DNA of 64,000 nucleotides from Halobaculum sp. XH14. Lineage in GTDB: Archaea; Halobacteriota; Halobacteria; Halobacteriales; Haloferacaceae. The notes beneath the pieces are model-generated. The model worked only from the letters and a program-made list of their open reading frames with translations, did not search any database and had not been told where the DNA came from. The stretch's first letter is position 1. Each line of letters starts with the position of its first letter. Location of the stretch: NCBI RefSeq assembly GCF_032116555.1, contig NZ_CP134949.1, positions 434,001 to 498,000 on the forward strand. The letters run 5' to 3'. The position numbers and the translations under genes were made by a program. Shown here piece after piece: positions 2,262 through 63,835 of this stretch.

Positions 2262-2822
2262 ATGAGCACCCAACACGTCAAGGTACCGCAGGACCGCATC
2301 GGCGCGGTCATCGGCGAGGGTGGCGAGACGATGCGCGAGATCGAGTCGGAGGCGGAGGTGCGCCTCGACATCGACTCGGAGTCGGGTTCGGTCGCCATCG
2401 ACGCCGTCGGCGACCCCGTCACGGCGATGGTGGCCCCGGACGTCGTCCGCGCCATCGGCCGCGGCTTCACCCCCGAGTCGGCGCTCTCGCTGCTCGAGCA
2501 CGACCTCCGCCGGTTCGACCTCGTCGACCTGGCGGCGGAGACCCGCAACAAGAACGACCTCCAGCGACAGAAGGGCCGGCTCATCGGCGAGAACGGCCGG
2601 ACGCGGCAGCTGATGGAGGAACTGTCGGGCGCGGAGGTCGTCATCAGGGGCTCGACGCTCGGCGTCATCGGCCAGCCGGAGGAGGTCGAGGCGGTGCGGC
2701 GCGCGACCGGGATGATCCTCGACGGCGCGCCCCACGGCGCGGTGTACTCGTTCCTGGAGCGCCGGCACAACGAGATCCACGGCGTTCCCGACCTGTCGCC
2801 CGAACCCGAGGAGTCGCGCTGA
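2262..2822 (+). CDS. KH-domain RNA-binding protein, Pno1/Dim2-like
   Basis: 186 aa protein with two KH domains. The first carries the GxxG loop GEGG (residues 18-21) and the second GENG (109-112), followed by a C-terminal segment ending in FLERRHNEIHG. This is the archaeal relative of eukaryotic Pno1/Dim2, which binds the 3' end of small-subunit rRNA and works with Nob1 and Rio kinases in ribosome maturation; the nearby rio1 gene supports that role. A TATA-like CTTAAAC about 27 bp before the ATG suggests a leaderless transcript of its own rather than read-through from the MFS gene. Confidence 0.9.
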   Translation: MSTQHVKVPQDRIGAVIGEGGETMREIESEAEVRLDIDSESGSVAIDAVGDPVTAMVAPDVVRAIGRGFTPESALSLLEHDLRRFDLVDLAAETRNKNDLQRQKGRLIGENGRTRQLMEELSGAEVVIRGSTLGVIGQPEEVEAVRRATGMILDGAPHGAVYSFLERRHNEIHGVPDLSPEPEESR

Positions 2823-2924
2823 TCGAGATGCGTTCTCTTGGGGCTGGTGGCAAACGGTGACTGTTCGGGTGTGAGTTACGCGGTATCTGGATGAGGAAAC
2901 GGACAGCAGGGACTGCTAGCTCAC

Positions 2925-3550
2925 CTGAAACCGCACGGCACCGCACCTCACCCTCCCTTACCTCGGAGCACGCTCCTCGGAACTCACCCTCGCTCCGCTC
3001 GCGTGAGCAGCCTCCTGCGATGCTCGCTCGTAGGCTCGCTGCGCGTCTCGTTCCTCGCGCGCGTCGACTCACACAGGGGGGTTCGCGTCACGCGCGCCGA
3101 CCGCAATAGGCTGGTCGATCCACGTGGCGCGCGGCGGCCGCGCTTGCGCGGCCGCTCGTGCGAGGGACGAGCACCGCAGGCCGAAGCTCTCGTGAGCGAC
3201 GCAGGAGCGAACGAGAGCACGCGGGTCGAGCGAAGCGAGTCCCGCGAAGGCCGAGGAGCGCAGGAGGCTGGGGAGGGTGAGGCGCGGTGCCGTGCGGTGG
3301 GTGGGACTGAAAGGGGCCGCGGCGGTCGGCGACGGCGCGACTGACAAGCACCACAGCGCGACCGCAGGGAGCGCGAGGAGCGCAGCAGTCGCACCGAGCC
3401 GAGCGTCGCGGGGGCTTTCGAGGCGGTTGACGAGATAACCGAACGGATGCCGGAAACGACAGCAGCGGGAGCTTTCGAGGCGGCCGAAGCGACAGCCAAA
3501 CCACCGCAGAAGCCGACAGCAGCGGGGGCTTTCGAGGAAGTCGTCACGAA
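2925..3550. repeat. Modular intergenic hairpin element, copy A (two halves head to head)
   Basis: This 875-bp gap holds no convincing gene. Bases 2930-3100 read as the reverse orientation of the element (blocks CCTCACCCTCC, CTCGGAGCACGCTCCTCGG, GCTCGCGTGAGCAGCC). Bases 3125-3540 read as the forward orientation. The forward half has a GCGGCCGC-CTT-GCGGCCGC type hairpin near 3133-3156 and the block GGGTGGGACTGAAAGGGGC at 3299-3317. It also has three spaced copies of GGGGGCTTTCGAGG (second one GGGAGCTTTCGAGG), near 3410, 3468 and 3523. Bases 3295-3444 are identical, by eye, to 9396-9545. Confidence 0.75.
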
Positions 3551-9264: not shown

Positions 9265-9600
9265 GAGGCATCCGGCGCGCGGCGGCCGCGCTTGCGCGGC
9301 CGCTCGTGCGAGGGACGAGCACCGCAGCGGGCGCGACCGAAGGGAGCGAACGCGAGGAGCACAGGAGGCTGGGGAGGGTGAGGTGCTGTGCGGTACGGTG
9401 GGTGGGACTGAAAGGGGCCGCGGCGGTCGGCGACGGCGCGACTGACAAGCACCACAGCGCGACCGCAGGGAGCGCGAGGAGCGCAGCAGTCGCACCGAGC
9501 CGAGCGTCGCGGGGGCTTTCGAGGCGGTTGACGAGATAACCGAACTAATGCCGGAAACGACAGCATCGGGGGCTTTCGAGGACCGCGCCACGCGACTGAA
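9265..9600 (+). repeat. Modular intergenic hairpin element, copy B
   Basis: It fills the gap between the DUF58 and transglutaminase genes. It begins with the same GC-rich hairpin (GCGGCCGCGCTTGCGCGGCCGC split by its CTT loop) as copy A, then GTGCGAGGGACGAGCACCGC, the GGGTGGGACTGAAAGGGGC block (near 9400) and two copies of GGGGGCTTTCGAGG. Bases 9396-9545 match 3295-3444 without a difference that I can see, so one copy derives recently from the other or both from a common source. Confidence 0.75.
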
Positions 9601-12029: not shown

Positions 12030-12140
12030 GCCTCGAAGGCCCGTGACCCCTTTCAGCCCCACCCACCGCACAGCCACACGTCTCCATTACCTCGGAGCGA
12101 GCTCCTCGGAACGCACCCTCGCATCGCTCGCGTGAGCAGC
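12030..12140 (-). repeat. Modular intergenic hairpin element, short copy C (reverse orientation)
   Basis: The 580-bp gap between the MoxR gene and the next gene has no convincing ORF. Bases 12047-12140 carry the reversed family blocks CCCCTTTCAGCCCCACCC (one change from other copies), then CTCGGAGCGAGCTCCTCGG and CGCTCGCGTGAGCAGCC. The rest of the gap shows nothing recognisable. Confidence 0.6.
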
Positions 12141-12375
12141 CGATTCGATCACTCCACTCCCTCCGGTCGCTCCCCTCACTCATCCCTCGCGCGCCGGTGG
12201 CGGACACGGAGGCCCGCCAGCCGCGCGCCAACCGCACCCGCACGGCGTCCGACACCGTCAGCCCCGGAGCGGACGCGCGACGGACGGCCGTCAGACAGTT
12301 CGCAGTCGTGCGATTCTCGGGAGACACCTTTAGGTGCCTCCGGCGGGGAGACCCACTCGATTCACCGGGTGTGTC

Positions 12376-14568
12376 ATGTCACAGGGAGCATACGGTCAGG
12401 GCTTCGTTGAACGGGTCGTCGAGGCGTGCGACCGGGTCGAGGCGGGGCTCGGGCCGGACGCCGCGGCCGAGTCGGTCGCCGCCGCGCTGTGCGAACACCT
12501 GTTCGCCGGGGTGCTGGGCTACGACGAGTCGCGCTACACGCGAAACCGCGCGGTCGCCCGGTTCCGGGACGACGCCGGCCACGTCGCGGCGACGCTCGCG
12601 GCCGTCGGACGGGGCGGCAGCGTCGACGCCGCGGCCGACGCCGCGTTCGCGGCGGCGGGCGGCGAGCCGTACGTGCAGTACGTCGTCGCCGCCAGCACCG
12701 ACAGGCTCCTCGCCTACGAGCGCGTGTCGGAGGAGGACGCGGCGGACGACGCGGCCACCGAGACCCACCACGGCGTCACCGCAACGGTCCACACCGACGT
12801 CCCGCTCGACGAAGCCATCGCCGCCGGCCGCCGCGGCCGGCTCTCCCAGACGCTCCGCCCGGGCCAGCAGCTCGCGGTCGCCAAGCTGACCGCGCTCCGC
12901 CCCGACGAGCTCTCGGCCGCGGAACGCTACGAGGAGTTCGACGCGCCCGAGCGGCACTCGGTCGCCGAGGACGACGGGCTGGGCACGCTCGTCGGCACGC
13001 TCCGCGACTGCGTGACCGACGTGCTGCTCCCGGCCGTCGAGGAGGCGTTCACTGACGTCCGCGAGCGCACCGACGCCTACGAGGACCGCGAGGGGGCGCT
13101 CGAATCGGCCGTCGACTCGGCGCTGCGCGGCCCGGGCGACGACACCGCCGCGGCGCCCGCCCGCCTCCGCCTGCTCGACCACCGGCGCGGGGCCGACGGC
13201 CGGGCCGTCAGCGACCTCCGGGCCGTCTACGGCACCTGGGTCCGCGGCGCGGGCCGCACCGGCTTCACGCCCTCCGAGAACGAGCGCGCGTTCGTCCGCG
13301 TCGCCGCGTTCTCGCTGCTCGAGGAGGCGTTCCTCGTCCGCGTCGCCGAGGGGATGAGCCTCCGGGAGGAGACGCTGAGCGGCGACGCGGTCGAGCGGTT
13401 CGAGGCGTTCGCCGAGGAGTTCGGCGTCGAGCGCGACGCCGGCGACCTGCTTCTGGTCGCCCGCGAGTCGTTCTCGGAGCTGTACGACCGGCAGGCCCCG
13501 CCGCTTTGTGACTGGGCGCTCGACCACGAGGCCGTCGTGGAGGCGCTCTCGCGGGTCGTCTGGTACCTCGATCACTTCGCGTTCGACGTCGACGGCGGCC
13601 GCGCGGCTGCGGCGTACGACCGCCTGCTGAGCGTGCTCGACCTGCCCGAGATCGAGGCCGACGCGACCGACCCGCTCCCCGACGTGGCGCTCGACCGGAC
13701 GGCGTTCCCTGCCGAGCCGGGCGCGCTGCTCGACCCGGCGGTCGGTGACGGGCGCTACCTCGTCGCGGCCGCGGCGCGACTGCGGGCGAGCGAGAGCGAG
13801 GAGTCGGACCCGCGAGAGCGACTGCGGACGGTTCGCGAGCGGCTCGTCGGCGCGACGGCGGACCCGCTCGCCTGTCGCGTGACCGAGACGCGCCTGCTGC
13901 TCCGCCTGCTGGACGACTACCGGGAGGCGCGCTGGGAGGAGGCCGGGTTCACGCTCGAGCCGCTACGGCTCCACCTGACGGACCCGCTCGTGCGCCCCGA
14001 CGCGCAGACGACGCTGGGCGCGCCGGGCGAGGCGCGCGCGGCGGACCCGCTGGACAGCGAGGCGTTCGCGTACGTCGTGGGCGCGTTCCCCGCGCGGCTC
14101 CGGCGCGACGTGGCGGAGGGCCCCGCGGCGGAGGCGTACGCGGAGTACGACACCGCCTACTACACCTACGACACGTCGGCGCTGTACGTCGACCGGGCGG
14201 CCGACTGGCTCGCCGAGAACGGCACGCTCTCGGCGGTCGTCTCCGGGCGGTTCCGGGACACCAGATTCGGCGAGAAGCTGCGCGAGCGCCTCCCCCAGTG
14301 GTATCGCCTGGAGGAGGTACGCGAGGTGCCGGGCACGGCCGCGGGCCGGACGCCCGTCCTGCTCACGGCCCGGCGCTTCCGGAAGAACGAGCCGCTCGTC
14401 TCGGCCGCGGAGTACGAGCCGCCGACGTACTCCTTCGAGTACGCGGAGGGGCTCGACGCGGATTCGGTCGACGTGCCGGCGTCGCTTCTGGGCTCGGACG
14501 AGTGGGCGCTCGACGCCGCGCCGACGGTCGACGTGGACGCCGAGGCGGAGGGTAACACCGCGGATTAA
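12376..14568 (+). CDS. Large protein related to N6-adenine DNA methyltransferases (Eco57I/PglX type), catalytic motif decayed
   Basis: 730 aa from ATG 12376; an upstream in-frame ATG at 12334 is less likely because it precedes the TATA-like region. I infer a methyltransferase core from DPAVGDGRYLVAAAARL (residue 453 on), which resembles the SAM-binding motif I (DPAxGxGxF). The C-terminal block ADWLAENGTLSAVVSGRF followed by KLRERLPQWY resembles the strand after motif IV in Eco57I/PglX enzymes. Where NPPY should stand there is YVVGAFPARL (566 on), so base-flipping catalysis looks lost. The N-terminal 430 residues are helical and unrecognised. No specificity subunit, nuclease or BREX gene lies nearby. 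It may be a non-catalytic SAM or DNA binder; the function is unknown. Confidence 0.6.
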   Translation: MSQGAYGQGFVERVVEACDRVEAGLGPDAAAESVAAALCEHLFAGVLGYDESRYTRNRAVARFRDDAGHVAATLAAVGRGGSVDAAADAAFAAAGGEPYVQYVVAASTDRLLAYERVSEEDAADDAATETHHGVTATVHTDVPLDEAIAAGRRGRLSQTLRPGQQLAVAKLTALRPDELSAAERYEEFDAPERHSVAEDDGLGTLVGTLRDCVTDVLLPAVEEAFTDVRERTDAYEDREGALESAVDSALRGPGDDTAAAPARLRLLDHRRGADGRAVSDLRAVYGTWVRGAGRTGFTPSENERAFVRVAAFSLLEEAFLVRVAEGMSLREETLSGDAVERFEAFAEEFGVERDAGDLLLVARESFSELYDRQAPPLCDWALDHEAVVEALSRVVWYLDHFAFDVDGGRAAAAYDRLLSVLDLPEIEADATDPLPDVALDRTAFPAEPGALLDPAVGDGRYLVAAAARLRASESEESDPRERLRTVRERLVGATADPLACRVTETRLLLRLLDDYREARWEEAGFTLEPLRLHLTDPLVRPDAQTTLGAPGEARAADPLDSEAFAYVVGAFPARLRRDVAEGPAAEAYAEYDTAYYTYDTSALYVDRAADWLAENGTLSAVVSGRFRDTRFGEKLRERLPQWYRLEEVREVPGTAAGRTPVLLTARRFRKNEPLVSAAEYEPPTYSFEYAEGLDADSVDVPASLLGSDEWALDAAPTVDVDAEAEGNTAD

Positions 14569-14679: not shown

Positions 14680-14855
14680 CTGGCGGTGAGTAGGGCCACA
14701 CCCACCCCAGCCGCCTGCGCTCCTCGCTCGCAGGCTCGCTCCGGTGCTCTCCCCTCGCGCGCGTCGACTCATCCCACGAAGGGGCTCGCGTCACGCGTTA
14801 CCCGGGACCTCCGGTCCCGTGACGTCACCATCGCTCCGCTCGCGTGACCGCCGAC
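14680..14855 (-). repeat. Modular intergenic hairpin element, copy D (reverse orientation, partial)
   Basis: The 425-bp gap 14569-14993 has no gene. It contains family pieces: CCCACCCCAGCCGCCTGCGC, CTCGCAGGCTCGCT, CTCGCGCGCGTCGACTCA, and the hairpin CGGGACCTCCGGTCCCG near 14801-14820, which is also found in copy F. It ends with CGCTCCGCTCGCGTGA. Confidence 0.55.
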
Positions 14856-18654: not shown

Positions 18655-19195
18655 TGTGAGTGCGGCGTTCGTTTCGAAAGCCCCCGCGGCTGTCGGCTCG
18701 GTGCGGCCGCTGTGCTCCTCGGCTCGCTCCCTCCGGTCGCTCGCCTGCGGTGCTTGACGGTCCGCGCCTGCGCCGACGTACGGGAGAGCGTGCTCTCCCG
18801 AATTCACGGGCGCAAGCGCCCGTGAACGCCGCGGCCCCGGTCAGTCCCACCCACCGCACGGCACCGTGCCATCCCCAGCCGACGAGGCCCCTCCCTGCGG
18901 TCGGGACCTCGCCTTCCCTCGGAGCACGCTCCTCGGAACTCACCCTCGTGGTTCGAAAGACGCCAGGGCGTCTTTCGTCAGTACGGGAAACCGACGGTTC
19001 CCCGTCAGCGGTCGGATTCCGTCGGAATCCGACGGCATCACGAAACTCTTCGATTTTCGAACGACTCCGCTCGCGTGAATAGCCTCCTGTGCTCCTCGCG
19101 TGCGCTCGCTCCGCTTGGCCGTTCACGAGACGCACGGCGTCTCGTGAGCTCACGAGAGCAACGCTCTCGTGAACGCCGCGCGCCAGCCGGCTGAT
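18655..19195 (-). repeat. Modular intergenic hairpin element, copy E (reverse orientation, at least seven hairpins)
   Basis: The 750-bp gap 18608-19357 has no credible gene. It carries a chain of short palindromes: 18780-18799 (CGGGAGAGC..GCTCTCCCG), 18802-18825 (TTCACGGGCGC-AA-, 11-bp perfect arms), 18954-18977 (CGAAAGACGC..GCGTCTTTCG) and 18983-19005 (ACGGGAAACCG.., one mismatch). The chain continues at 19011-19033 (GTCGGATTCC..GGAATCCGAC), 19124-19146 (CACGAGACGC..GCGTCTCGTG) and 19151-19171 (CACGAGAGC..GCTCTCGTG). Reversed family blocks GAAAGCCCCCGCGGC (near 18675) and CCGGTCAGTCCCACCCACCG (near 18835) flank the first hairpins. Confidence 0.8.
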
Positions 19196-21405: not shown

Positions 21406-21501
21406 GACGACGGAGAGACGCTTCACCAAGGTGACGACGGAGAGACGCTTCACCAAGGTGACGACGGAGAGACGCTTCACCAAGGTGACGACGGAGAGAC
21501 G
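21406..21501. repeat. 27-bp tandem repeat, three full units and a partial fourth
   Basis: Units start at 21406, 21433, 21460 and 21487, each beginning GACGACGGAGAGACG and ending CTTCACCAAGGT; the fourth stops after 15 bp. The units are identical as far as they go. They lie between the divergent-side ends of pyrC (start at 21290) and aconitase (stop at 21589), so upstream of pyrC. The 27-bp period keeps one reading frame open across the repeats, but no start or codon bias supports a gene. Confidence 0.9.
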
Positions 21502-26184: not shown

Positions 26185-26455
26185 CGGCGGTCACGCGAGC
26201 GGAGTCGTTCGAAAGGCGCTTCGCGCCTTTCGTGATGACGAGGGAGCTTCGCTCCCTCGAACCACGAGGGTGACGTCACGGGACCGGAGGTCCCGGGTAA
26301 CGCGTGACTCGAACCCCCTCGTGGGGTGAGCAGCCGCGCGCGAGGGGTGAGAAGCGCAGCGAGCCTGCGAGCGAGCATCGCAAGCGGCTGCTCACGCGAG
26401 CGGAGCGAGGGTGAGTTCCGAGGAGCTCGCTCCGAGGTAAGGGAGGGCGAGGCCG
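26185..26455 (+). repeat. Modular intergenic hairpin element, copy F
   Basis: Downstream of the histidine kinase gene. Hairpins: CGAAAGGCGC-TTC-GCGCCTTTCG (near 26208-26231), GAGGGAGC-TTC-GCTCCCTC (near 26239-26258) and CGGGACCGGAGGTCCCG (near 26279-26296). Family blocks follow: GTGAGCAGCCGCGCGCGAGG, GCTCACGCGAGCGGAGCGAG and CCGAGGAGCTCGCTCCGAGG. The GGGTGGGACTGAAAG block is absent in this copy. Confidence 0.7.
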
Positions 26456-26560
26456 AAATCACCGCCAGGGGTAGTGATCTGCTGCCCGGTAACTGAATTT
26501 GTGACGTTGCCCGGACTACCTCCGTTCTATCGAGGATCGAGTTCAACGGGGAAGGAGAGA

Positions 26561-26640
26561 TGGGAGGGATTCGAACCACGCCGAGACGGTCGCCTCGCTG
26601 TCGCTCGGCGCTGCGTCTCGTCTCCGTCGAATCCCTCCCA
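26561..26640. repeat. 80-bp hairpin-like element whose arms copy the 3' end of tRNA-Lys
   Basis: Left arm TGGGAGGGATTCGA (26561-26574; the direct match to the tRNA extends to 26577) and right arm TCGAATCCCTCCCA (26627-26640) are perfect 14-bp inverted repeats. A second inner pair CGAGACG (26582-26588) and CGTCTCG (26614-26620) lies inside. The arms equal the T-arm/acceptor end of the tRNA-Lys gene just to the right. The right arm plus AGCCCGTTTT continues the identity, in inverted orientation, into the tRNA terminator at 26688-26700. Confidence 0.75.
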
Positions 26641-26695
26641 GCCCGTTTTCGGCGACGCGGCTCCTCGCTTCGCTCGTCCGTGGTGCCCCGAAAAA

Positions 26696-26769
26696 CGGGC
26701 TGGGAGGGATTCGAACCCCCGACCGTCCGGTTAAAAGCCGGACGCTCTCCCTAACTGAGCTACCAGCCC
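26696..26769 (-). tRNA. tRNA-Lys (anticodon UUU)
   Basis: On the minus strand the 5' acceptor GGGCTGG (from 26769) pairs with CCAGCCC (to 26697) and the discriminator is G at 26696. D-arm TAGCTCAGTTAGG, anticodon stem CCGGC / GCCGG enclosing loop TTTTAAC (anticodon TTT), and T-arm GGGGGTTCGAATCCC are all canonical. A run of T's follows on the minus strand as a terminator. No intron and no encoded CCA. Confidence 0.95.
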
Positions 26770-26833
26770 TCGCCCGGACTTGCCGGCGTGCCCGCATAAG
26801 CGTTTACGATACAGCCGCCACCCGAATCCACCA

Positions 26834-46875: not shown

Positions 46876-49800
46876 GATTCAGACGAACCCTTGTGGGGTT
46901 GAAGCACTCCGAGAGGTCGCGGATCTTCGCCTGGTGGCTGAAGATTCAGACGAACCCTTGTGGGGTTGAAGCGGACGGTCCGGAAGGAGAACCGTGGCGT
47001 GACGATCGATTCAGACGAACCCTTGTGGGGTTGAAGCGGACCATTGCACACGTCCCGTCGCACCACACGGGTAGATTCAGACGAACCCTTGTGGGGTTGA
47101 AGCCTGCGAGTGGTGCGGGTCGGCCTTCACCTGCTGTGATTCAGACGAACCCTTGTGGGGTTGAAGCGTCTGCTGGCCGGGGCCGGCGCGCTCGACGAGC
47201 GGCCGATTCAGACGAACCCTTGTGGGGTTGAAGCCTCCGGGCGTTCGACGCGGTGGGACTTGTGGACGTGATTCAGACGAACCCTTGTGGGGTTGAAGCA
47301 CGTTTGCGTTCGAGACGGTCGAGAACATCCCCGCGATTCAGACGAACCCTTGTGGGGTTGAAGCTCCGGGCCGGGCGAAACGCGCGGCTGGAAAATCACA
47401 GGATTCAGACGAACCCTTGTGGGGTTGAAGCTTGCGTTCGGTCATAGTGCCGTCTCCAATTCCGCGTGATTCAGACGAACCCTTGTGGGGTTGAAGCACA
47501 GTCCGGACACACGATGTCAACGGATTTGGGGTCGGATTCAGACGAACCCTTGTGGGGTTGAAGCTTCGACACGCGCCCCGAGGCAGACGACGCGTTTGGA
47601 TTCAGACGAACCCTTGTGGGGTTGAAGCGGGCGAGGGCGGCGTCCTCAACCTGCGGCCGTTCGGAGATTCAGACGAACCCTTGTGGGGTTGAAGCCACGT
47701 CTGCGTTAGTGCCGTCACCATATCCGAAGTGGATTCAGACGAACCCTTGTGGGGTTGAAGCCGGTAGTGCTCATGGGTTACCACCCCTCTCCATCCGATT
47801 CAGACGAACCCTTGTGGGGTTGAAGCCAGTGAGGCGCGTAGTCGCCGCCGTCGAAGTCGGGGGATTCAGACGAACCCTTGTGGGGTTGAAGCGTTGTCCG
47901 ACACGGTGAGCGTCCCCGGGAACTTGCGGATTCAGACGAACCCTTGTGGGGTTGAAGCTACTTCGCGCGCGGAATGGCGCGATACGCCTACAACGATTCA
48001 GACGAACCCTTGTGGGGTTGAAGCGTCCACGGGGTCGGCCTCCTCGGTGGCGGGTGCCTCGATTCAGACGAACCCTTGTGGGGTTGAAGCTCGTACCGCT
48101 TCCGGAGGTCCTCGGACTGCCCGAGGGATTCAGACGAACCCTTGTGGGGTTGAAGCTTTCTGTAGCCAGTCGCGGCCGTGCCGGGCGAACCGCGATTCAG
48201 ACGAACCCTTGTGGGGTTGAAGCCGCTTCTCCTCGGTTGTGTTAGCACTCGGCGCTCTGAGATTCAGACGAACCCTTGTGGGGTTGAAGCGCCTGCCGCA
48301 GCGCCCGGCGGACGTCGTCGATGGTGATTCAGACGAACCCTTGTGGGGTTGAAGCCCCCACCGTCCGGGCCGCCGGGGTAGTTCTCCGGCGGATTCAGAC
48401 GAACCCTTGTGGGGTTGAAGCACCCGATGGGATTCCGAGCCTGGGACGACGTCCCCGGGATTCAGACGAACCCTTGTGGGGTTGAAGCTCGTGGACGCCC
48501 TGGGGGGCGTCCTCCCAGATGAACGGATTCAGACGAACCCTTGTGGGGTTGAAGCTCCTCTGCATCGGGAGTGGTGTCCTCCGCGTCGTCGGCGGTCTGC
48601 GATTCAGACGAACCCTTGTGGGGTTGAAGCGTGATACGATACGCCCTTTTATGCAACAGGAGCGGATTCAGACGAACCCTTGTGGGGTTGAAGCTCGCTC
48701 CGGTGCCGGTCGTAGCACAGCGAGCTGCGATTCAGACGAACCCTTGTGGGGTTGAAGCGTCTCGTCGGGGTCCGTCTCGTCCGTCTCGTCGGGCGATTCA
48801 GACGAACCCTTGTGGGGTTGAAGCCTCCGCGAATACTGCATGGTCTACACGCAGGTCGAGGATTCAGACGAACCCTTGTGGGGTTGAAGCACGTCCATGT
48901 CACGCTCGTCTACGGGTTCCTCGTTGGGGATTCAGACGAACCCTTGTGGGGTTGAAGCACGTTCTGCAGCCCTCCGTGAGAGCCGTCGATGAACGGATTC
49001 AGACGAACCCTTGTGGGGTTGAAGCCTCGAGGTACTGCCCGCGGTGCTCCTCGCACGTCACGGATTCAGACGAACCCTTGTGGGGTTGAAGCCGCTCGTC
49101 GGAGACCGTGCAGCCCCCGCAGTTGTGGATTCAGACGAACCCTTGTGGGGTTGAAGCCACTGTCCCGTGGAACTCGGGTCGCCCGCGTTGACCGATTCAG
49201 ACGAACCCTTGTGGGGTTGAAGCGACCCATGAGCATCGTCGAGGCTCAGACCGACGGGGATTCAGACGAACCCTTGTGGGGTTGAAGCGGAGGTCGGCGA
49301 CCTCGGACCGGAGGGCGTCGAGTTGATTCAGACGAACCCTTGTGGGGTTGAAGCGATCACACGACGACAGGGTAGGCAAAGGTCGGTTTGATTCAGACGA
49401 ACCCTTGTGGGGTTGAAGCCTGTACCGGGTCGAAGCGGTCGAGGTCGAGACGGAAGATTCAGACGAACCCTTGTGGGGTTGAAGCCCAGTAGGCCCACCC
49501 CGTGTCAACCATATCATCCACGGGATTCAGACGAACCCTTGTGGGGTTGAAGCGTCGCGCGGCGCGTCGAGGCGGTCCCCGGCTACGCGATTCAGACGAA
49601 CCCTTGTGGGGTTGAAGCTTGGAAGGCGTCGTTGAGCCGGCGCGTGTCCCAGTCCGATTCAGACGAACCCTTGTGGGGTTGAAGCCGCGAACGACTCCGC
49701 GAGATTGGCTCGCTCGCCAACGATTCAGACGAACCCTTGTGGGGTTGAAGCGCGTCCAGGCCGGTCGCGGTGTCCAGGTACACGATGGATTCAGACGAAC

Positions 49801-52800
49801 CCTTGTGGGGTTGAAGCCGTTCGGGTGCAGCGCGTCTTCGGCGTCCATCGTCGATTCAGACGAACCCTTGTGGGGTTGAAGCGGCCTCTACATTGAACGT
49901 CACGTCGACGGGCCCAGCTGATTCAGACGAACCCTTGTGGGGTTGAAGCAACTGCCAGTGCCATCAGCAGCTCGTGCTCGAGGAGATTCAGACGAACCCT
50001 TGTGGGGTTGAAGCGCGAGATAGCGAATCACCTTGTACGTCGTATCTCGGATTCAGACGAACCCTTGTGGGGTTGAAGCCTTGGAAGAACGACTGCCTGC
50101 GTGTCGTAGACCTGGATTCAGACGAACCCTTGTGGGGTTGAAGCGTTTGGGGGAGCATCTGTCGAACCAACCGTGTCCGTGGATTCAGACGAACCCTTGT
50201 GGGGTTGAAGCCCGCGGAAGTATCGGAGCCACAAGCACGAGTGGGCGATTCAGACGAACCCTTGTGGGGTTGAAGCACCCGCCGGCTCAGCCCCGTCTGG
50301 CTGGTCTGGAACGGATTCAGACGAACCCTTGTGGGGTTGAAGCGAGGAGACGGTCGGCCTCGAGGGGGTGCTCTCGTCGGGATTCAGACGAACCCTTGTG
50401 GGGTTGAAGCGACCGGGAAAACAGCGCGAAGCCACTCCAGGACCCGGATTCAGACGAACCCTTGTGGGGTTGAAGCGGACGAGATGGTCAACTGGTATCT
50501 TGCCGAGGGGCGGATTCAGACGAACCCTTGTGGGGTTGAAGCCGAGATATGATCGGACTCTTCGAGGTCCTCCGTCGTGATTCAGACGAACCCTTGTGGG
50601 GTTGAAGCTCCTCCCCCGTGTGGCAGAACATGCACTCCCCCTCCGATTCAGACGAACCCTTGTGGGGTTGAAGCGGTCCGATTCGGAGACGCCAGTACCC
50701 ACGGCGGTATCGATTCAGACGAACCCTTGTGGGGTTGAAGCTTGTGCAACGTCTCCCGCGTGGTCGCTTCCGGGTTGTGATTCAGACGAACCCTTGTGGG
50801 GTTGAAGCAACTCGAAGAACGTCACGAGTATGCCGGGCCGAAGGTGATTCAGACGAACCCTTGTGGGGTTGAAGCGCTGAGCCTTCCCCCTCGAAGACTT
50901 CGTCCGCGAGGATTCAGACGAACCCTTGTGGGGTTGAAGCTGCTTGGTCGGTCGTGTTCACCGTGTCTTCTTGGTCGGATTCAGACGAACCCTTGTGGGG
51001 TTGAAGCTCGCAGAGATCTCCGTCGGCGGTCTCACTCACCGTGATTCAGACGAACCCTTGTGGGGTTGAAGCCCCGTGAAATCGCCGTACGTGACGTTCT
51101 CTACGTAGATTCAGACGAACCCTTGTGGGGTTGAAGCGCCTGGAACCAGGGCGCTCCGACGGTGTCCAGTCTAAGATTCAGACGAACCCTTGTGGGGTTG
51201 AAGCCCCGCTACCCCGGACTCGTTGTCCTTGGTCGTGATGAGATTCAGACGAACCCTTGTGGGGTTGAAGCGATGGTCGTGATACCCCCGCGCTCGTCGC
51301 TGGACGCAGATTCAGACGAACCCTTGTGGGGTTGAAGCCTGGTTGATGGACACGTCGTCCAACTGCCCGAACGATTCAGACGAACCCTTGTGGGGTTGAA
51401 GCACGTGCTGCGAAACGTCGATGAACCCCGCTCGCCGGGATTCAGACGAACCCTTGTGGGGTTGAAGCGGACGAGGCTCGTTCGCGGTCGGGTGCGACTG
51501 CAAGGATTCAGACGAACCCTTGTGGGGTTGAAGCCGTCTCCCGGCGGTGGTGACGGCGGACTCGTCGGTAGATTCAGACGAACCCTTGTGGGGTTGAAGC
51601 GGCGGGTACGTCTGTCCCTCTTGCGACTTCGACGATCGATTCAGACGAACCCTTGTGGGGTTGAAGCGACAACATCGAGCCGGCGCCGCCCCGGGACCGC
51701 TCCGGATTCAGACGAACCCTTGTGGGGTTGAAGCTCGCAGTCGGACGCGCAGTACCTCCACGACGTGGTCGGATTCAGACGAACCCTTGTGGGGTTGAAG
51801 CGACAAGGAGAAGTGGCGATTTGAGGAGACAGACGGTCGATTCAGACGAACCCTTGTGGGGTTGAAGCTTCACAATCGGGTTTGTTCTTGGGTTACTGGT
51901 GCTGGATTCAGACGAACCCTTGTGGGGTTGAAGCATATTTACTGTCACATACGACGAGTCCATCGATAACAGATTCAGACGAACCCTTGTGGGGTTGAAG
52001 CCCCGTCCAGACGCGGGCGGACGACGGGCCTGATAGCCGATTCAGACGAACCCTTGTGGGGTTGAAGCCCGGTCCGGACGGCTACATCACGGTCGAAGTG
52101 TCGGATTCAGACGAACCCTTGTGGGGTTGAAGCACTCGTCCCCACGTCGCCGTCGCCGCTCGGGGACGATTCAGACGAACCCTTGTGGGGTTGAAGCAGC
52201 GGACGAGTGGCCGGGGGACGTGCGCGCCGATTAGATTCAGACGAACCCTTGTGGGGTTGAAGCATCCGCGAGGCCGTCGCCGTCCCAGTCGAGGCCGTCC
52301 GATTCAGACGAACCCTTGTGGGGTTGAAGCCACGTGTGGAATCTGTCGGTGAGGACCTTGGACGATGGATTCAGACGAACCCTTGTGGGGTTGAAGCATC
52401 CGCGAGGTCGTCGCCGTCCCAGTCGAGGCCGTCGATTCAGACGAACCCTTGTGGGGTTGAAGCCGTTACGGCCCGGAGTTCGACTCCGCCGCCGCCCGCT
52501 GATTCAGACGAACCCTTGTGGGGTTGAAGCAACTCCGGGAGTGAGACGTTGGAGCACCTTACCGCGGATTCAGACGAACCCTTGTGGGGTTGAAGCGTCT
52601 GAAGCGAACTCGTCGGCTGCCGGATCGTAGGTGATTCAGACGAACCCTTGTGGGGTTGAAGCTCGACAAAGTTCCACGCGAACGTGTTGAAAGAGCCGAT
52701 TCAGACGAACCCTTGTGGGGTTGAAGCACCAACAATCACGCCAGCGACGACGCTCTCGTGTGGATTCAGACGAACCCTTGTGGGGTTGAAGCGCGTCACC

Positions 52801-53057
52801 GAGGACCAGCCGCGAGCGTGGGAGTATCTGATTCAGACGAACCCTTGTGGGGTTGAAGCGAGAACATGGAACTCGACCAGACCACCGACACCGAGATTCA
52901 GACGAACCCTTGTGGGGTTGAAGCTCCGGCGGGACGCCCGTGTCGACGTCGTCGTCGCGTTGATTCAGACGAACCCTTGTGGGGTTGAAGCACGGTCAAC
53001 AACATCCGCGACGCGATCGCCGAGCGCGATTCAGACGTACCCTCGTGGGATTGAAGC
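46876..53057 (+). CRISPR. CRISPR array, 94 repeats and 93 spacers (type I-B)
   Basis: I located 94 repeat starts from 46876 to 53028. The repeat is 30 bp, begins GATTCAGACGAACCC and ends TTGTGGGGTTGAAGC, and differs only slightly from the Haloferax volcanii repeat. The first 93 copies look identical. The last (53028-53057) has three changes at positions 11, 17 and 23 (A to T, T to C, G to A). Repeat-to-repeat distance is 64-68 bp, so spacers are 34-38 bp, except one of 45 bp (48556-48600). Mean unit is about 66 bp. Spacers starting at 52264 and 52398 are nearly the same sequence. Peptide-like ORFs across the array are translations of the repeat and are not genes. Confidence 0.98.
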
Positions 53058-54589: not shown

Positions 54590-54684
54590 GATATCAGATG
54601 CCTCCCCAACGACGCTCACCCTGACGGGTTCGCACATTTGGGATTTGGCTTGTCCGTGAACTCAGCCTCAAACCCGTCAGGGTG
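54590..54684 (-). ncRNA. Candidate TnpB guide RNA (omega/reRNA) scaffold and element right end
   Basis: On the minus strand, CACCCTGACGGGTT (54684 to 54671) pairs with AACCCGTCAGGGTG (54630 to 54617), a perfect 14-bp stem around a 40-nt loop. The stem straddles the tnpB stop codon. GGGGAGGCATCTGATA then follows, resembling the right end of IS1341-type elements. The guide would start just after this point, at about 54595-54590 reading leftwards. Boundaries are inference. Confidence 0.45.
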
Positions 54685-55881
54685 GGCGGTAAACCCGCCG
54701 CTCAGCGTCACCGTTCCAGACTTCAGGGCAAGCTGACTGTTGCCCGTCCGCCGAGACGACTGTTGGCCCCGACGGACGTACCGCATTCCGATGTTCTTCG
54801 CCGCGTTGTAGTCGGCGTTCGCCTCCGACTCGCACTTCACACACTGGAAGTCGTTTCGAGTCGGGCGATTCTCATCCGCTGTGAACCCACACTCGGCGCA
54901 CCGCTTCGACGTGTACGCGGAACCCACCTGCTCCACCGAGACACCGACTGCTTCGGCTTTGTACTCCACTTGCTCGTAGAGCGTTCGGAACGCCCACTTG
55001 TGTCCCCACGACGCGCCTGTGCGGTCGCGGATGTGGGTCAAGTTCTCGAACACAATCACGTCGCACTCGTAACGTAGGGCTTCTGTGATAATGGCGTTCG
55101 ACGCGCGGTGAAGTACGTCTCGGACGTATCGTAATTCCCGACCACTCGACTGTTCAAGCGTCCGGTGAGAGCTTCGCGTTCCAGTCTGCTGCAGGCCAGC
55201 GCGTACCTTCTCGAACTCTCGAAGGTTGTGGTTTAACTCTCGCCCACTGAAGAAGTAGGCGGTACTGGTGACAGCGAGGCTTTCGATACCCAAGTCGACG
55301 CCGAGAACCGTTCCGTTCTCAGTCGTCTCCGCAGTCTCGGCCTTAAGTTTACGAAATCCGAGATGGAGGAACCATCCACCGTCACGATAGTGGAGGGACG
55401 ACTCCGTCGTCTCCCACTTCTCGGAGTCGATGTACTGGTTTTGATGTCCCTCCTCCCCCTCCGGGAGTTCAAGGTCGGCCTGCACTCGTGAGTGGTCCCC
55501 GAGGGTCGTGAGCGATACCTGCTCGCGTTCGGGGAAGAGCGTCATCGTCCGGGTATCGTAGGTGACTGTCGGGCTTGTGTACGTTGGTCTGGACGCTTTC
55601 CGCCCCATCTGGTGCCGTGAGATACACGACTGGATGTTCTCAGCTGCCTGATGACATGCGAGGACGGCGTGTTGGCTCCCTAACGATGCCCGCTCGCGGA
55701 CGTCGTCGTAGGCGAGTTTCTGGACCTCGAACGGAGAACGACACTGCCTCCATGCGCGGTCGACAGCGACCTGGCAACCGCGTTTCCACGCCGAGACTGT
55801 GTCTCGAAGGAGCGTCTCGTCTTCCGGGGAAACGGTGAGACGCGTAATCGATGTCCGGCGGTGGTACTCAGCGTCCGACAC
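54616..55881 (-). CDS. tnpB: TnpB, IS1341-type RNA-guided nuclease (IS200/IS605 family), full length
   Basis: 421 aa. N-terminal helical/WED-like part, then an intact RuvC nuclease: GVDLGIESLAVTS (first Asp), VIVFENLTHIRD (Glu) and NADYNAAKNIGMRYV (last Asp). Between the last two lies a zinc ribbon with CAEC and CVKC (in KRCAECGFTADE and FQCVKCESEA). No tnpA is nearby, so the element is not autonomous. Known TnpB proteins use an RNA made from the 3' end of their own gene plus flank to cut DNA. The last 70 bp of this ORF and the downstream sequence contain a 14-bp inverted repeat fit for that RNA. The ORF has no frameshift, so it could be active. Confidence 0.93.
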   Translation of the reverse strand: MSDAEYHRRTSITRLTVSPEDETLLRDTVSAWKRGCQVAVDRAWRQCRSPFEVQKLAYDDVRERASLGSQHAVLACHQAAENIQSCISRHQMGRKASRPTYTSPTVTYDTRTMTLFPEREQVSLTTLGDHSRVQADLELPEGEEGHQNQYIDSEKWETTESSLHYRDGGWFLHLGFRKLKAETAETTENGTVLGVDLGIESLAVTSTAYFFSGRELNHNLREFEKVRAGLQQTGTRSSHRTLEQSSGRELRYVRDVLHRASNAIITEALRYECDVIVFENLTHIRDRTGASWGHKWAFRTLYEQVEYKAEAVGVSVEQVGSAYTSKRCAECGFTADENRPTRNDFQCVKCESEANADYNAAKNIGMRYVRRGQQSSRRTGNSQLALKSGTVTLSGGFTAHPDGFEAEFTDKPNPKCANPSG

Positions 55882-59289: not shown

Positions 59290-59745
59290 GAGGTACCGGC
59301 CAGCCAACTGGCGCGCGGCGGCCGCCCCTCGTGGGCGGCCACCCGTCGCGCGAGGGATGAGTGAGGGGAGCGACCGAAGGGAGCGCCGAGCGAATCGGCT
59401 GGGGAGGGTGAGGCCCGGTGGCGGTGCGGGGCGGTCGGGTGGGATTGAAAGGGGCCGCGGCGTTCACGGGCGCTTGCGCCCGTGAATTCGGGAGAGCGTG
59501 CTCTCCCGTCCGTCGGCGAACCCTGAGGCCTCAAGCACCGTGGTTCGAGAGAGCGGAGCTCTCTCGTCAGTACGGGAAACCGTTGGTTTCCCGTCAGCAG
59601 TCGGATTCCGCCGGAATCCGATGGCATCACGAAAATCTTCGATTTTCGAACGACAGCGCGACCGCAGGGAGCGAGGAGCACAGAGCGTCTCGCGGGAGCC
59701 GAGAGCCACGGGGGCTTTCGAGAACTGCGCCAACACACCGTACCA
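59290..59745 (+). repeat. Modular intergenic hairpin element, copy G
   Basis: It fills most of the 730-bp gap upstream of nadE. It contains GGGTGGGATTGAAAGGGGC near 59439-59457, then hairpins TTCACGGGCGC-TT-GCGCCCGTGAA (near 59463), CGGGAGAGC..GCTCTCCCG (near 59489), GAGAGAGC..GCTCTCTC, ACGGGAAACC..GGTTTCCCGT (near 59572) and TCGGATTCC..GGAATCCGA (near 59600). It ends with GGGGGCTTTCGAG near 59710. The same hairpins occur in the same relative order, reversed, in copy E. Confidence 0.8.
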
Positions 59746-63477: not shown

Positions 63478-63835
63478 GGCGCGCGTGACGGCGAGCCCCG
63501 AAGTGGGCGAGCAGACGCGCGCGAGGGACGAGCACCGCAGGCGAACGAGCGAAGCGAGTGAGACGAGGAGCGCAGGAGGCTGGGGAGGGTGAGGCGCGGG
63601 GCGGTCGCGGTGGGTGGGACTGAAAGGGGCCGGCTGGGTACGCGAACCCCGGACCCGGTGAGGCGAGCAAAGCGAGGCGAACCTCGGAAGTCGCAGCCGA
63701 CGAACGTCGCGAGGAGGACCGTCTTCCGTAGCAAGCACCGCAGGCGAGCGTAGCGAGCCGAGGAGCACAGCGCGGTCCGCGGGAGCGTAGCCAGCCGGGG
63801 GCTTTCGAGGCGGTCGTCACTATCCACCGGCCCAC
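63478..63835 (+). repeat. Modular intergenic hairpin element, copy H
   Basis: It occupies the middle of the 590-bp gap before the last gene. It has CGCGAGGGACGAGCACCGCAG near 63520 split by family variation, GAGCGCAGGAGGCTGGGGAG near 63570, GGGTGGGACTGAAAGGGGCC near 63611, and GGGGGCTTTCGAGGCGG near 63797. The inner part differs from other copies (GCGAGCAAAGCGAGGCGAAC). The remainder of the gap shows nothing recognisable. Confidence 0.7.

Follow-up and report, generated by a model that had tools for sequence, protein, structure and literature searches.

The window analysed here, a 64,000-nt stretch of Halobaculum sp. XH14 (NZ_CP134949.1, positions 434,001 to 498,000), contains eight palindrome-rich intergenic sequences, hereafter copies A to H, among other repeats and genes. 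Strong hairpins are about 2.5-fold enriched in it, with 18 of score 8 or more against 6-7 in first-order random sequences. A preliminary description had regarded the eight sequences as related copies assembled from fixed blocks and exchangeable palindromes. Palindrome-rich sequence is indeed found at all eight and the blocks recur, GGGTGGGACTGAAAGGGGC being present at 106 sites in the 3.68-Mb genome (55 on the plus and 51 on the minus strand, at most two mismatches; none for the reversed control). The blocks are, however, the 5' end (GGGTGGGACTGAAAGGGGC) and 3' end (GGGGGCTTTC) of one single element, the D module, and the copies are not equivalent. Copies A, B, E, G and H carry a full or insert-bearing D module, copy C a D module without its interior, and copies D and F only a second type of module, U.

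In copy A, the complete D module spans 3299..3419 on the plus strand (covariance model R1, E=5.4e-10), with a U module (CGTGCGAGGGACGAG ... GGCTGGGGAGG) assigned by motif map on the same strand at 3157..3277 and a second U-type module, seen in the sequence, head to head with the first at approximately 2925..3110 on the minus strand. Its 3' tail has a period of about 57 nt (3410..3537, plus strand), GGGGGCTTTCGAGG occurring at 3410 and 3524 with a GGGAGCTTTCGAGG variant between them. Copy B lies in a stretch 96% identical to copy A and comprises a complete D module found with the covariance model (9400..9520, plus) and a U module found by motif map (9305..9378, plus). The 195-nt D module of copy H (63612..63806, plus; covariance model R1, E=2.3e-4) is enlarged on its P4 side and has its U module at 63518..63589 (plus). 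For copy C, block search and covariance model locate a D 5' block with the interior deleted (GGGTGGGGCTGAAAGGGGT; 12046..12064, minus) alongside a U-type module at approximately 12065..12193 (minus). Copy D (14701..14855, minus) is of U type without a D module and lies where synteny with both sister genomes is broken. Copy F (26185..26455, plus), likewise of U type without a D module, bears a 62-bp SMR-A-like two-hairpin insert (26204..26265, minus); the orthologous site in the sister holds a different U.

The D module of copy E (18676..18852, minus) measures 177 nt owing to two inserted hairpins, TTCACGGGCGC..GCGCCCGTGAA and CGGGAGAGC..GCTCTCCCG, which form a block at 18781..18826 (minus). 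Its U module (CAGCCGGCTGGCGCGCG to GGCTGGGGATGG; 18869..19193, minus) also has inserts, among them a 118-bp SMR-A-like four-hairpin insert, GTGGTTCG...CGAACGAC, which lies opposite to the frame (18948..19065, plus) and for which the exact empty site exists elsewhere. In copy G, the U module (CAGCCAACTGGCGCGCG to GGCTGGGGAGGG) occupies 59301..59408 and the insert-bearing D module, 283 nt long, 59437..59719, both on the plus strand. Within this D module are the two-hairpin block (59463..59508, plus) and a 115-bp SMR-A-like insert (59540..59654, plus), situated between CACCG and CAG in the 5' GCA internal loop. Copies E and G had been described as sharing five hairpins in opposite orientation, which holds for the two-hairpin block (minus in E, plus in G), as for the D frames. 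The four-hairpin block, roughly 90% identical between the two, lies instead on the same strand in both despite the opposed D frames, and is therefore an independent insert.

Other features of the window include a very uniform CRISPR array (46876-52991) of more than 90 repeats matching Rfam CRISPR-DR24, and a perfect 27-bp tandem repeat at 21406-21501, probably in or beside coding sequence. Partial tRNA 3' end repeats (GGGAGGGATTCGAACC) at 26560-26780, beside an intact tRNA gene, look like remnants of integration events and are repeated at the orthologous place in a sister species (G001).

The D module, typically 107-131 nt, has a one-strand fold, a rod of helices P0 to P4 with conserved internal loops, and in most insert-free copies GGGGCTTTC is found 107-131 nt past the 5' block. 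Outermost is P0 (GAAAG/CTTTC), which a GGGC/GGGG internal loop separates from P1, a variable helix of about 12 bp; P2 comes next, then P3a to P3c, interrupted by GCA and AA/GA internal loops, and finally P4. Some copies have lost the entire interior between the P1 arms (GGGGCCGCGGGGGCTTTC), as at 14200-14260 of locus L204 of this genome compared with L297; the orthologous site in G001 holds an intact D module, and some copies thus predate the species. In L101, L038, L056, L065 and L115, a D frame with the usual ends and P1 encloses another interior, of the GTAGTCGGGTCAGCGACCCC...GATATGTC type, which amounts to a domain swap; at L101 a relative of the OB gene discussed below is also nearby. The D tail recurs about every 57 nt, decaying away from the module, in the window (3410-3537 and 9511-9581) and in L017, L024 and L188, as if new copies had landed repeatedly at the tail of an older one.

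The arms of this rod vary in concert. In a set of 46 copies drawn from numerous genera, pairing holds in 90.6% of helix cells, and changes on both sides of a pair number 279, against 88.8±8.7 in shuffled controls and no more than 88 in slid ones; the covariation score is 0.477, against 0.149 when shuffled and at most 0.108 when slid. The P1 arms are complementary in 152 of 182 copies, with 117 distinct 5' arms among the 152, and chimeric helices made by swapping arms between copies pair in only 7% of cases. The outer helix covaries as well: an exact complement is present in nine of the eleven copies without GAAAG (e.g. GGAAG/CTTCC), and CTTCC accompanies GGAAG in eight of nine. In P3b, C-G (35 copies) is exchanged for G-C (9) or A-U (1), and in P3c, C-G (33) for U-A (13) with no intermediates. 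Compensatory change is found in every variable helix, in agreement with the earlier suggestion of selection on structure. Several copies in this genome nevertheless lack the D interior, so the constraint does not hold for every copy.

The mismatches that are tolerated distinguish the two strands. Counted in an unbiased register, G.U outnumbers A.C in P1 by 78 to 16 (p=6e-11), a split of 64:9 in other genomes and 14:7 in this one, where the excess taken alone is weak. Pair 46-78 of P3a is CG in 24 copies, TG in 15, TA in 6 and CA in none, and hence includes 15 U.G and no C.A. Double-stranded palindromes would yield G.U and A.C equally, both strands being alike; the excess of G.U implies that selection sees one strand, that beginning GGGTGGG, as RNA or single-stranded DNA. 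Covariation thus exceeds that of shuffles on one strand, one of the features by which structured RNA is recognised. That D acts as a structured RNA is the most likely interpretation, since conserved internal loops joined to freely varying stems are typical of RNA and there is no detectable Y1 enzyme to process hairpins of single-stranded DNA. A single-stranded DNA hairpin is less likely but conceivable, G.T being the best tolerated mismatch in DNA as well.

The U module usually precedes D on the same strand in this genome, mostly by 10-47 nt, and has the layout CAGCC..GGCGCGCG-[hairpin]-CGCGCGAGGGATGAG-[hairpin]-GAATCGGCTGGGGAGG. Its pairing elements are GAT/ATC in 24 copies and GAC/GTC in 6, with 19 copies of another kind, and it is probably structured, though less firmly so than D. 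A GCACCGCAG...GAGGAGCGCAG motif is common to both modules. Inspection by eye recognised no conserved promoter upstream of U in this genome, where unique flanking sequence begins directly before the module.

The range of the family extends across a whole class. Among 40 relatives, 21 contain GGGTGGGACTGAAAGGGGC, at up to about 88 copies per genome, and the block occurs in at least 120 named stretches of Halobacteria from several families. Of 194 Halobacteria genomes searched with the covariance model, 156 contain D, representing 55 of 65 genera; copy numbers per genome are at-least values. In a phylum-wide sample, all 30 D matches fall within Halobacteria, and none was found among about 204 genomes of the phylum outside the class. 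The exact D core string is absent from IMG/VR, and D has no match in a phage collection. Like the non-coding RNA families of Rfam 15, D has covarying helices, conserved loops and one-strand polarity; no family there matches D, U or the structured plasmid region described below at gathering or permissive thresholds. Of the copies examined in this genome, 68 of 71 are located between genes (called with a simple codon model), which bears out the earlier remark that they almost never lie within them.

The hairpin chains of these copies are independent inserts of the form GTGGTTCG...CGAACGAC (n=29), 57-70 or 113-122 bp in length. Their ends, which the search pattern required, are complementary at 7 of 8 positions, with one G-G. 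For 23 of the 29, excision of TGGTTCG...CGAACGA recreates a sequence present elsewhere (at most 2 mismatches in 20), compared with an average of 1.3 for joints shifted by 2-3 nt. Insertion takes place exactly between CG and C in loops, and no target base is duplicated. Six inserts lie between CACCG and CAG and seven between AGCG and CAG, which are the two GCA internal loops of D, and eight lie in a U hairpin. In L022 and L013, the left and right flanks of the insert belong to two unlike host contexts, the outcome that recombination between inserts would produce.

This anatomy has a published counterpart, and the preliminary statement that no named family matches must be divided accordingly: it remains true of D, whereas the inserts fit the SMR-A description from Haloquadratum (PMC3119063). 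The SMR-A repeats of Haloquadratum walsbyi (HqIRS42/43/55) are about 110 bp long, have ITRs, cause no target duplication, number in the tens of copies and attack the near-terminal palindromes of PATE/IS605 elements (PMC3119063). The inserts found here, likened to HqIRS42/43/55 by that description rather than by sequence, share the length of about 110 bp (in the 113-122 class), the ITRs, the lack of target duplication, a copy number in the tens and the habit of landing in palindromes of other elements. They differ in having an additional short class (57-70 bp) and variable arms, and in their hosts: they enter loops and palindromes of the U and D modules, neither of which is an IS605 end. In literature searches, the Haloquadratum work on PATEs and SMRs was the sole close precedent (PMC3119063).

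Comparison with sister species supports the mobility that had been proposed. A sister species lacks copies E and G at the corresponding gene junctions: where copy E places 604 nt between conserved flanks, G001 has 18 nt, and the insert at copy G is likewise missing there. Copies C and F differ in the sister genomes. Synteny breaks occur at copy D, at one copy in L204 (near 2500-3010) and, in a second sister genome (G002), at copy E. The sequences at 14680-14855 of the window and near 2500-3010 of L204 are at breakpoints relative to both sister genomes, which suggests that repeats of the element mediate rearrangements.

In some Haloarculaceae MAGs, D is contained in a MITE of about 210 bp with GGTAGTGTTCAGATAAG as TIRs. 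Target duplications are 7-8 bp, for example CGTCCGG (L145), CGTGAAC (L259) and CCGTCCG (L263); matching 7-mers flank seven listed copies, several extending to 8 bp by eye. An IS6 transposase remnant in a relative has the same TIR, so that these elements display both the TIR in common with an IS6 transposon and the target duplication that define IS6-type MITEs. The range of D is far wider than that of the TIR, however, and the genome studied here has neither GGTAGTGTTCAGATAAG nor an IS6 transposase, which sets the window copies apart from this class. Flanks of its own U-D copies share an 8-mer in 14 of 39 cases (6.7±2.1 expected), at inconsistent positions.

D is also found on plasmids. A D query matches 46 plasmid records from haloarchaea; the matches almost always fall in stretches without annotation, often as a single D per plasmid. 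In 14 of 16 inspected loci (the exceptions being L304 and L308), D adjoins a divergent gene whose start is 424-556 nt away and which encodes a protein of about 290 aa; the C-terminal OB fold of this protein resembles haloarchaeal replication factor A most closely, at a level far below family cut-offs. The interval of about 450 nt is itself conserved and structured, and is present in 159-165 plasmid records including pNRC100, which has no clear D. When regions were chosen without using D, the OB gene was present in eight of eight and a D-like rod directly behind in seven of eight, with a diverged 5' block, CCTGGTGGACTCAGAAAGGGCGAGG. The region divergent from the RPA-like OB gene was seen in L301-L303, L306, L307, L309-L317 and L320-L326, in more than 150 plasmid records overall, and it also bears hairpin inserts (e.g. 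L307, L317 and L312). Folding of both strands singles out neither, the structured interval was not found beside the chromosomal D copies of this genome, and U has no proven plasmid counterpart. With a fixed rod on plasmids and dispersed copies on chromosomes, D is what the two have in common.

The copies are probably composite, non-autonomous mobile elements of Halobacteria, in which D and U frames carry SMR-A-like inserts and D would be the functional heart. D may have originated in the plasmid locus, or be shared with it, and various transposition systems may then have carried it as cargo into chromosomes. Its transcription would depend on read-through or on a promoter that went unrecognised. 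Copies with an intact fold would be retained because function or remobilisation requires it, and inserts would survive only where it is left undisturbed. A more specific version can be offered tentatively, in which D forms the 3' domain of a hitherto undescribed plasmid non-coding RNA of about 550 nt that works with the RPA-like OB-fold protein in replication or maintenance. The D domain might then have escaped as a class-wide mobile RNA element, with hairpin insertion into the unpaired loops occurring at, or by way of, the RNA level.

A different account, which appears rather unlikely, would make the copies purely selfish DNA palindromes of MITE or SMR type, with arms kept complementary by template switching or arm-to-arm gene conversion and neither RNA nor function involved. 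It draws on the Haloarculaceae MITEs with TIRs and target duplications that carry D, on the lack of a visible promoter, on the loss of interiors by deletion, and on the inserted hairpins, which exhibit no excess of G.U. Within D itself, equality of the strands would not lead one to expect the polarity of G.U over A.C; internal loops are kept across families while stems vary, and at plasmid loci the position of the rod is fixed.

Derivation from IS605 elements is improbable. Under this proposal, U and D would be degenerate IS200/IS605 (TnpB) ends with SMR-A insertions, as in Haloquadratum, where PATEs, which have near-terminal palindromes, are hit by ITR-bearing SMR-A repeats that measure about 110 bp and leave the target unduplicated (PMC3119063), a description that the inserts of this genome fit. 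PATEs and the present elements are alike as non-coding, palindromic mobile elements of haloarchaea attacked by small repeats (PMC3119063); D differs in being a covarying rod with conserved loops, in its class-wide range and plasmid locus, and in not being an IS605 end. Indeed, an IS605/TnpB end (omega-RNA) identity was rejected, as the D core occurs in none of 30 tnpB loci. Relatives rich in tnpB tend to have few or no D, and this genome has no Y1 TnpA and a single, unrelated TnpB at E<=1e-3 (54616-55881 of the window, minus). The downstream flank of that tnpB, TTGGGGAGGCATC, resembles the end motif of U, probably by chance; none of the other tnpB loci has such a motif.

Movement of REP/BIME-type repeats by a hairpin-processing TnpA-REP (HUH, Y1) transposase, as had been suggested, agrees with more than 100 intergenic palindromic copies in both orientations, yet it is highly improbable given that no Y1 enzyme was found in this genome at E<=1e-3 by a search whose control finds one in Haloferax volcanii, that the copies have no link to tnpB ends, that D is a larger, 110-nt multi-loop rod of other architecture, and that the SMR-type inserts lack target duplications. 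Equally remote is the idea of transcription terminators or 3'-UTR stabilisers selected at gene ends, for strong GC hairpins do lie between genes, but the proposed genome-wide block search, with orientation of neighbouring genes counted, gave no terminator-like bias: convergent pairs are the rarest (8, against 23 divergent and 20+17 co-directional), the 37 co-directional pairs have no sense bias, and no conserved T-run was found at D copies.

If the reading of D as the structured heart of a composite mobile element is true, D would be one of the most abundant archaeal families of structured non-coding elements, present in about 80% of sampled Halobacteria genomes and not in Rfam. Through the family, repeats of chromosomes are connected with a locus carried by many haloarchaeal plasmids, and the structured region of this locus is also found on pNRC100. 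The copies of the family are a candidate cause of genome rearrangements, with several located at synteny breaks. The inserts in D provide a natural experiment in which mobile hairpins enter a host without breaking its fold, and offer a specific system in which to ask how SMR-A repeats move.
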